A DNA stretch of 64,000 nt from Hyphomicrobium album (GTDB taxonomy: Bacteria > Pseudomonadota > Alphaproteobacteria > Rhizobiales > Hyphomicrobiaceae), in assembly GCF_009708035.1 (NCBI RefSeq), contig NZ_WMBQ01000002.1:930001-994000 (forward strand). Direction: 5' to 3'. Positions 38,241 through 58,346 of the stretch are shown here, piece by piece. Numbering within the stretch: the stretch's first letter is position 1; each line of letters begins with the position of its first letter. The translations under genes were made by a program, and so were the position numbers. Below the pieces are notes generated by a model. It saw only the letters and a program-made list of their open reading frames with translations, searched no databases and had not been told where the DNA came from.

Positions 38241-38954
38241 CTAGCGAACGAGACGCACGGACTTGTCGACCGCGATCTCCTCGGTGCTCATGCGGCAGCT
38301 GTAGGCCAGGGCCTCGACGCCGGCGTCGTGCGCCGCTCGGAAGGCCTCGGCATAGCCGGGATCGAGATCGCCCGAGATCGAAAAGCTCTCGGCGTCGGCG
38401 CGCTGGATGAGATAAACCATAACGGCGCGATGACCCTGCGCCACCATTGCCGCGAGCTCGCGCAGGTGCTTGGCACCGCGCGTCGTCACGCTATCGGGAA
38501 ACTCGGCGCGGCCGGCGCGGCGCATGAGGTGGACGTTCTTGACCTCGACATAGCAGCGACCCTTGCGCGGGTCTTCAAGCAGAAGGTCGATGCGACTCGC
38601 CTCGCCGTACTTCACCTCGCGCCGCAGCGACTCGTATCCGCCAAGCTTCTTGATGCCCCCCGCGGTGATCGTTTCGCCGACGAGGCGGTTGGGGTGTAGC
38701 GGGTTGATGCCGACGAGCGTCGGTCCGCTGCCGAGGTCGGCCTCGACCATCTCCCAGGTATGCGGGTATTTGCGGTTGGCCGCCTCGCTGCGCGACAGCC
38801 ACACGACTGCGCCGGGCGCCGTCAGCCCGAGCATGGCGCCCGTGTTCGGGCAGGCGGCGGTGATCGTCTCGCCGCTGTCCAGCCGCACGTCGGCGAGGAA
38901 GCGCTTGTAGCGCTGGACCAGGCGGCCGCGGACGAGGGGGGAGGGGAATCGCAT
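38241..38954 (-). CDS. sfsA: Sugar fermentation stimulation protein SfsA
   Basis: This encodes 237 residues matching SfsA along its length: [88 protein letters not shown] and [16 protein letters not shown]. SfsA has an OB fold and a PD-(D/E)xK-like core and is a putative DNA-binding nuclease whose real job is uncertain. The start ATG at 38954 is 10 nt from a CTAG palindrome. Confidence 0.96.
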
Positions 38955-38963
38955 GCGGCGAGC

Positions 38964-39039
38964 CTAGTGTGATGATCGAGAAATTCGCAATCATGAGCGG
39001 CTAGGTGCCGAGCGAATTTCTCGATCTGAATCACACTAG
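38964..39039. repeat. CTAG-bounded bulged palindrome, element A
   Basis: 76 bp. Arm CTAGTGTGAT (38964-38973) and arm GATCGAGAAATTCGC (38974-38988) pair with GCGAATTTCTCGATC (39012-39026) and ATCACACTAG (39030-39039). The right side has a 3-nt bulge TGA (39027-39029) between the arms and there is a 23-nt loop. Both ends are CTAG. It is one of four such elements in the window, here immediately after sfsA's start side. Confidence 0.9.
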
Positions 39040-39052
39040 CAAGGGTACGATT

Positions 39053-39129
39053 CTAGTGTCCCTTATGATCCCGAAGTTCGCTCCAGCTCTAGCCACGAAC
39101 ACTGGCGAACTTCGGGATCGGGACACTAG
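39053..39129. repeat. CTAG-bounded bulged palindrome, element B
   Basis: 77 bp. CTAGTGTCCC (39053-39062), a 4-nt bulge TTAT (39063-39066) and GATCCCGAAGTTCGC (39067-39081) pair with GCGAACTTCGGGATC (39105-39119) and GGGACACTAG (39120-39129); loop 23 nt. Thirteen nt separate it from element A. Its bulge is on the left arm, so it faces element A in inverted orientation. Confidence 0.9.
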
Positions 39130-39170: not shown

Positions 39171-39911
39171 TTGAGCGGCGACATCGTCACGGCGGCGGTG
39201 CTGGTCATCGGCGACGAGATCCTTTCCGGCCGTACACCGGATCGGAACGTCAACTATATCGCCGCGCATTGCACGCGCGTGGGCATCCGCCTGCAAGAGG
39301 TGCGCGTCGTTGGCGATGCCGAAGCGGCGATCGTCGAAGCGGTCAACGCACTGCGTGAGCGCTACACGTATCTCTTCACCACCGGCGGTATCGGGCCGAC
39401 GCACGATGACATCACGGCTGATGCGATCGCCAAAGCGATGAGCGTTCCGATCGATCACGATCCACGCGCCGTCGAACTGCTGCACGCTTTCTTCGCGCGC
39501 CGCGGTATTGAAGCGACGCCCGCACGCATGCGGATGGCGCGCATTCCGCGCGGTGCCGAGCTCATTGCGAATACGGTTTCCGTGGCGCCCGGCTTCCTGA
39601 TCGGCAACGTCATCGTGCTCGCCGGCGTGCCCGATATCATGCAAGTGATGCTCGACGACGTGACCGCGAAATTGCGCACCGGCGCCAAAATGCTCACCGC
39701 GACGATCCAACTTTTTCGTCCCGAGGGAGACGTCGCCGATATTTTTGCCACCCATCAAAAAAAGTTTCCCGATGTTGCAATGGGAAGCTATCCGACGTTC
39801 GCCGAAGGTCGCGTCTCTACTCAACTCGTTCTGCGTTCAACAGATTCAGCGCTGCTCGCGCGTGCGAAAGATCAACTGAACGACGCGCTGCGCGCGCGCG
39901 GTTTATTGTGA
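39171..39911 (+). CDS. CinA-type molybdopterin-binding domain protein
   Basis: This encodes 246 residues from a TTG at 39171, chosen for the ribosome-binding site GGAGAGAGACG just before it. The domain has the MoCF-binding signature: AAVLVIGDEILSGRTPDRNV, the TTGGIGPTHDDITADAIAKAM loop, PGFLIGNVIVLAGVPDIM. It is the MoaB/CinA-N type that binds molybdopterin or hydrolyses ADP-ribose. It has no CinA C-terminal amidase domain. Cytosolic. A palindrome pair lies 41 nt upstream. Confidence 0.88.
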   Translation: MSGDIVTAAVLVIGDEILSGRTPDRNVNYIAAHCTRVGIRLQEVRVVGDAEAAIVEAVNALRERYTYLFTTGGIGPTHDDITADAIAKAMSVPIDHDPRAVELLHAFFARRGIEATPARMRMARIPRGAELIANTVSVAPGFLIGNVIVLAGVPDIMQVMLDDVTAKLRTGAKMLTATIQLFRPEGDVADIFATHQKKFPDVAMGSYPTFAEGRVSTQLVLRSTDSALLARAKDQLNDALRARGLL

Positions 39912-58178: not shown

Positions 58179-58253
58179 CTAGTGTCCTGATCGCGAAATT
58201 CGTCTCAGTGTGCTGCGAGGTTGGAACGAATTTCGCGATCTGAAGGACACTAG
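58179..58253. repeat. CTAG-bounded bulged palindrome, element C
   Basis: 75 bp. CTAGTGTCCT (58179-58188) and GATCGCGAAATTCGT (58189-58203) pair with ACGAATTTCGCGATC (58226-58240) and AGGACACTAG (58244-58253), with a TGA bulge (58241-58243) on the right arm and a 22-nt loop. It begins 19 nt after the glyA stop. Same shape as element A. Confidence 0.9.
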
Positions 58254-58267
58254 CCAACTTGATCAAT

Positions 58268-58346
58268 CTAGTGTGATTCAGATCGAGAGGTCCGCTTCAC
58301 CACCCGGCCGAGCGCGATATAGCGGACATCTCGATCATCACACTAG
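58268..58346. repeat. CTAG-bounded bulged palindrome, element D
   Basis: 79 bp. CTAGTGTGAT (58268-58277), bulge TCA (58278-58280) and GATCGAGAGGTCCGCT (58281-58296) pair with AGCGGACATCTCGATC (58321-58336; one mismatch) and ATCACACTAG (58337-58346); loop 24 nt. It lies 14 nt after element C and faces it in inverted orientation, as B faces A. Confidence 0.88.

Follow-up and report, generated by a model that had tools for sequence, protein, structure and literature searches.

The DNA analysed here, a 64,000-nucleotide stretch of the Hyphomicrobium album genome (the window), carries between sfsA and a CinA-like gene a 166-bp unit (38964..39129) that is one member of a family of repeats. The family has a fixed plan, two inverted and bulged hairpins around a 13-nt linker, in which base pairing is kept while the arm sequences change, and the same anatomy is found in other families and orders of the Alphaproteobacteria. 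The reading preferred here, with a probability of about 0.6, is that the roughly 166-bp unit is a non-autonomous transposable element: IHF would bend its centre and so bring the two hairpin ends together, and an enzyme acting in trans would move it.

Hairpin A (38964..39039, 76 bp, GAT class) has a 10-bp outer stem (38964-38973/39030-39039), a 15-bp inner stem (38974-38988/39012-39026), a 23-nt loop and a 3-nt bulge, TGA (39027..39029). Hairpin B (39053..39129, 77 bp, CCC class) likewise has a 10-bp outer stem (39053-39062/39120-39129), a 15-bp inner stem (39067-39081/39105-39119) and a 23-nt loop, with a 4-nt bulge, TTAT (39063..39066). All of these arms are 100% paired, both bulges lie on the inner arm facing the linker (39040..39052), and a CTAG stands at each end of the unit on the target-site side (38964..38967 and 39126..39129). 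To the left, the start codon of sfsA (38241..38954, minus strand; Pfam PF03749 and PF17746) is 9 nt away, and to the right the CinA-like gene (39171..39911, plus strand; MoCF_biosynth and FLAD1_M) begins after 41 nt; gene identities in the window come from a domain scan of five of its proteins. As single-stranded DNA each hairpin folds at -27.2 kcal/mol (z -8.97 for A and -9.29 for B), and since none of 200 shuffles folded equally well the hairpins are not due to chance. The window also holds CTAGTGT 10 times against a mean of 1.24, a count reached in 0 of 100 shuffles, and a second composite (58179..58346, CCT and GAT classes; hairpins 58179-58253 and 58268-58346, 14-nt linker) sits between a glyA gene, coding for SHMT, and an NrdR-like gene. 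The first-pass annotation had described two bulged palindromes at 38964..39129, and these are real and were drawn correctly to the base. However, it had treated them as two separate elements, whereas the near-constant spacing of the hairpins marks them as one unit, and its inner arm beginning with GATC is true of this pair but not of the family, in which many copies begin with GATTCC or otherwise.

When the 166-bp pair was used as a BLAST query against the H. album genome (E up to 10), 85 matches were obtained, among which at least 32 are distinct full-length copies, with 40 of 43 first-look candidates scored. The suspected repeat family is therefore present across the genome, and the case in which only these copies existed does not apply. 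The other matches were partial, weak or on the reverse strand, the unit being nearly palindromic. A whole-hairpin pattern with exact CTAGTGT ends matched 36 times in this genome and its reversed control not at all. By eye the copies fall into two types, one with GAT and CCC hairpins and one with GAT* and CCT hairpins, the composite at 58179-58346 being among the latter, and truncated or fused copies were seen at 541676, 423127, 396953 and 692864. At 166 bp, dispersed in this number and without a protein-coding gene, the unit has the general features of a MITE. Both ends carry CTAGTGT as a terminal inverted repeat, with weaker agreement further in, although CTAGTGT was used in the searches and its constancy is partly selected for.

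The following figures hold for recognisable copies only, since the finder accepted nothing without CTAGTG-like ends and a minimum of 9 of 13 inner pairs. Among 111 distinct composites, 95 have a linker of 13 nt, 9 one of 14 nt, 3 one of 15 nt and 2 one of 12 nt, while 16 nt and 9 nt occur once each. Of 228 distinct hairpins, 221 carry the bulge on the inner arm, which faces the linker, 2 carry it on the outer arm and 5 have none. This agrees with the BIME-like inverted arrangement proposed in the first-pass annotation. Three side observations concern unit structure. Perfect hairpins without a bulge occur at two contig starts of genome G009 (L252 75-148 and L254 68-141), possibly as assembly effects; one copy of the congener G005 (L515 1546) is a bulge-free palindrome that misses the 3-nt bulge of its orthologue (L141 1501); and three hairpins follow one another at L172 1411-1666 with 13 nt between each. 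Rfam gave no matches in the window at gathering scores, and at E up to 1 over seven loci the only matches were two of a single microRNA model to one hairpin of L233, below the cut-off of that model.

By BLAST, with at most 14 candidates scored in each genome, copies were found in at least 19 of 60 genomes, H. album included. All of these are among the 36 family genomes, and none were found in the 24 genomes outside the family. At the level of the order, a pattern for the inner ends matched 17 of 397 genomes, and when one locus per matching genome was inspected both hairpins were seen in 13 of 17, H. album included, seven of them outside its own family. At the level of the class the pattern matched 7 of 385 genomes, again including H. 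album; beyond it both hairpins were seen in G435, G543, G567 and G583, one in G488 and none in G642. Lone pattern matches were left uncounted unless hairpins were seen, because the reversed control pattern also gave single matches in more than 20 of 397 genomes. Two genomes are rich in matches: G405 has 57 for the inner ends, and G009 has 246 for the arms, equal to about 60 copies or more with near-identical ends. Whole composites are present on plasmids of Roseibium algicola and Rhizobium sp. SSA_523, and further plasmid matches to copies other than the one in the window fall in Roseibium/Labrenzia, Sphingopyxis/Sphingobium, Rhizobium, Agrobacterium and Allorhizobium. The window copy matched no named plasmid or phage; the L533 copy gave no match either, and the L271 copy matched no phage.

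The claim that pairing is held while the arms differ was confirmed over 134 distinct stems. Inner-arm pairs agree at 94.7%, a figure that drops to 46.0% when arms are exchanged between copies (at most 52.6% in any of 200 swaps), and as many as four different base pairs are found at one position; outer-arm pairs agree at 95.8%, against 79.3% with swapped arms. In six orthologous pairs from H. album and G005, differences were counted at 26 of 600 stem positions, 35 of 275 loop positions, 16 of 78 linker positions (8 of the 16 from a single pair) and 58 of 477 flank positions (P 2e-5 for stem versus loop, P 3e-6 for stem versus flank), but that stems outlast loops is only suggestive because picking the G005 copies by similarity biases the sample towards intact stems. 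The finder missed a seventh pair (L130/L494), which is outside this count. The faster decay of the linker would fit a role in movement only. Quasi-palindrome correction was considered as the only cause of the pairing, and the stem changes, 22 one-sided and 2 two-sided and paired, argue against it; the bulge-less hairpins (5 of 228) weigh against dismissing such correction.

Comparison with relatives shows that copies are present at some sites in one genome and absent in another, and that CTAG-like tetramers are the preferred target. Fourteen sites have a readable empty allele, with CTAG at 4, CTAA at 2, TTAG at 1 and another sequence at 7, so that a YTAR tetramer stands opposite CTAG-type ends of the filled allele at 7 of 14. 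CTAG was found at L129 (empty in G006), L130 and L153 (both empty in G005) and L501 (empty in H. album), and at these four sites the filled copy has CTAG at both ends. CTAA was found at L140 (G002, right flank weakly aligned) and at the sfsA site itself, where the flanks are joined through a single CTAA in four relatives (G001, G002, G003 and G006) and G005 retains hairpin B alone; TTAG was found at L516 (empty in H. album). At the CTAA and TTAG sites the filled copy does not have the tetramer of the empty allele at both ends, and a target duplication of 2 bp gives the same picture as one of 4 bp at the readable sites. The remaining empty alleles are CTTG (L135/L509), CCAG (L139/L494), GTAG-like and unclear (L510), GTAG in G006 at L496 (in G002 the left junction there is CTAG and the right flank starts some 49 nt later), and three sites without a clear tetramer (L145, L146/L503 and L497). 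Five comparisons with unclean alignments were dropped (L148, L149, L151, L500 and L153 against G004). The first-pass annotation had expected empty sites with a single CTAG and had held sites without it to speak against a mobile family. A single CTAG or CTAA was indeed found at some and no CTAR at others, and for the family as a whole the objection does not hold.

Two of these sites are filled in H. album and empty in G005 (L153 and L130), and two show the reverse (L501 and L516), while nine sites are common to both genomes, one of them only in part. Since copies differ in both directions between congeners, the family has moved after their split. Tandem composites with one common CTAG occur in two genomes of different families (L133 1501-1829 in H. 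album and L247 1432-1764), as insertion into a terminal CTAG would produce. Additionally, a phage-like viral contig with genes for the small and large terminase subunits (L271) holds a complete composite as well as the beginning of a second, the only one of 85 loci, among the matches listed, in which the viral-contig scan saw hairpins. An older common copy has decayed in G003 and G006.

With gene orientations taken from a home-made codon-usage gene caller, the 29 sites in H. album that hold 30 of its 32 full-length copies lie between tandem genes in 23 cases, divergent genes in 6 and convergent genes in none, a lack that stands out when intergenic CTAGs in related genomes serve as the comparison (P 0.014). 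The avoidance is not general: once the sites of four other groups were added, convergent pairs made up 10 of 110, compared with 80 of 521 for intergenic CTAGs (P 0.10). At 11 of the 29 H. album sites the upstream gene terminates at the TAG within a terminal CTAG. In the pooled set, which leaves out copies near contig ends and in which G005 sites common with H. album are not independent, 37 of 110 sites show this overlap, as do 115 of 521 of the relatives' intergenic CTAGs (P 0.014), a pattern that fits insertion into CTAG stop codons. GANTC, the CcrM site, occurs in 110 of 118 composites, mostly in the inner arms; each element has 2.14 on average where shuffles give 1.35, and 7 of the 199 GANTC sites are inside a loop.

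The linker appears to be a candidate IHF-type site at the centre of the element. In one orientation, 72 distinct 13-mers give the consensus AATCATNNNNTTG, which by its letters agrees at 8 of 9 positions with the IHF consensus WATCAANNNNTTR, likewise 13 nt long, as given in PMC5896051. Agreement over the 72 linkers averages 6.54 of the 9 fixed positions, compared with 3.90 for shuffled letters and 2.89 for hairpin loops, and 16 of 20,000 column permutations equalled it; 39 of 72 linkers reach at least 7 of 9. The linker of the window copy, AATCGTACCCTTG on the minus strand, matches at 7 of 9. One steady departure is position 6, where 58 of 72 linkers have T instead of the A of IHF. The orientation of the linker relative to the hairpin classes varies between types, by eye, as would be more natural for a bend than for a coding sequence or a promoter. 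IhfA (L529) and IhfB (L527) are both encoded by H. album with scores exceeding the NCBIfam cut-offs; a composite copy happens to lie some 1.1 kb from the ihfB gene (G000:C1:1647127-1648667; L527, L153).

In the preferred reading IHF would bind the 13-nt core and fold the element double, bringing either the pair of bulged hairpins or the CTAGTG termini together in a synapsis. An enzyme supplied in trans would then cut the ends and join them into a CTAG or CTAA (YTAR) target, leaving CTAG at both ends. Against this reading stand the 7 of 14 empty sites that are not YTAR, three of them lacking a clear tetramer, the T in place of A at IHF position 6, and the lack of a matching transposase among the three families searched. 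Searches of H. album for Y1, IS630 and IS701 transposases detected none, and in the genomes searched no autonomous partner from these families, and none with these ends, was found.

These searches bear on two other ways in which the copies may have been moved. It is possible, if somewhat unlikely, that the unit is an ordinary MITE derived by internal deletion from a DDE insertion sequence (of the IS5 group, with a YTAR target, or IS630, with a TA target), the parent being lost or unsampled and the hairpins a by-product of palindromic ends. IS5, IS701 and IS630 use YTAR and TA targets, and the terminal inverted CTAGTGT, the CTAG-like target, the small size and the intergenic location are all as such an origin predicts. 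However, PF13358 (IS630) was found in 4 of 11 copy-bearing genomes and undetected in 7, H. album included, which tells against the IS630 origin suggested in the first-pass annotation, and PF13546 (IS701) was found in 1 of 11, also not H. album. Among 14 IS630 loci, one (L475 in G032) has a whole composite nearby (1275-1440), which may be chance, and the other 13 have no hairpin. A deleted insertion sequence also leaves unexplained why there are two complete hairpins, each bulged inward and each covarying separately. Movement as a BIME/REPIN-like unit, with a Y1 tyrosine transposase (RAYT/TnpA-REP) working on hairpins of single-stranded DNA, would account for the inverted hairpins, the asymmetric bulge, the tetranucleotide at the foot and the keeping of structure over sequence. 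It is nevertheless very improbable and largely refuted already: the tag at the foot is CTAG and not GTAG, and PF01797 was detected in 1 of 14 genomes (11 of which carry copies; G405 is not among the 14), neither in H. album, where a RAYT had been proposed, nor in G009 despite its 246 arm matches. The sole match (G010, L184 1471-2173) is an IS200/IS605-like reading frame interrupted by an in-frame stop, and a composite-like hairpin pair lies right next to it.

The family might also have been selected in place, as an RNA or DNA element used by the host (intercistronic stem-loops with a role for RNase III or like that of a terminator), and the slower change of stems than of loops and flanks, the two two-sided paired changes and the purely tandem or divergent sites of H. 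album are in line with this. It is an improbable explanation, given that the choice of G005 copies by similarity favours intact stems, that an older common copy has decayed in G003 and G006 and hairpin A is lost from the sfsA site in G005, and that the avoidance of convergent sites is not general. It is rather doubtful, too, that the family is the Caulobacter CIR family (CcrM-associated intergenic repeats, reportedly described by Chen and Shapiro in 2003) in another form. According to the available text on CIR (PMC2229807), those repeats are alphaproteobacterial and intergenic, with two long inverted-repeat arms and a linker, TA termini and GANTC, which most composites also contain here, but they are about 110 bp against 166 bp and carry GANTC at the terminal loop, whereas here it is in the stem or bulge. 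An IHF-type linker, an inner bulge and a CTAG target are not mentioned for CIR in that part of the text, and their means of movement is unknown (PMC2229807). A wider form of the transposable-element reading, tentative and held with considerable doubt, is that of a class-wide alphaproteobacterial element with an IHF hinge, at its exact centre, whose ends would be recognised not by their sequence but by hairpin shape, the stem with its inner bulge, by an enzyme beyond the tested families. The enzyme may be the host's own, because the copy-rich G009, with its near-identical ends, shows no Y1 transposase.

The closest known systems are the Caulobacter CIR repeats, the Correia elements and E. coli RIB/BIME-1. 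RIB/BIME-1 repeats are inverted palindromic units, with short REPs tagged GTAG, and Boccard and Prentki reportedly described in 1993 that they bind IHF and lie at the 3' ends of transcription units; the hairpins here are, by comparison, about 76 nt long and tagged CTAG. The Correia elements (NEMIS, CREE) of Neisseria are, in the available texts, non-autonomous units of 100-160 bp with inverted ends, TA termini, an IHF site in the long form, filled and empty alleles and occurrence in prophage regions (PMC2649163, PMC2229807), and IHF has been proposed to aid the synapsis of their ends (PMC2649163). However, they form one stem from both ends, have conserved ends and belong to another bacterial class (PMC2649163, PMC2229807), whereas the element here has two separate hairpins with freely covarying stems. 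REPIN/RAYT systems and the GTAG and CGTC REPs are likewise high-copy palindromes, often dimers, known from Bradyrhizobium and Rhodopseudomonas, but their units are 20-40 bp with another tag and linker, and CTAG does not appear in the available text (PMC3733652); GTAG stands at the palindrome foot there and CTAG here, where the H. album genome has no detected Y1. Br-REP1 and Br-REP2 of Bradyrhizobium are extragenic palindromes from the same order with a consensus that by eye is unlike the element here, as far as the available text goes (PMC5082802). Among the literature matches listed, as available in part, no description of a CTAG-bounded double hairpin was found. How MITE-like repeats of bacteria move without a visible transposase is described as an open question (PMC2229807). 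This family supplies a defined 166-bp unit whose insertions vary between congeners and for which empty sites are at hand, together with a candidate IHF hinge and genomes in which near-identical copies are numerous, so that both the mobilising enzyme and recognition by shape or by sequence become directly testable. It combines a plan near that of CIR with a hinge near those of Correia elements and RIB, and none of these three matches it in all the features tested.
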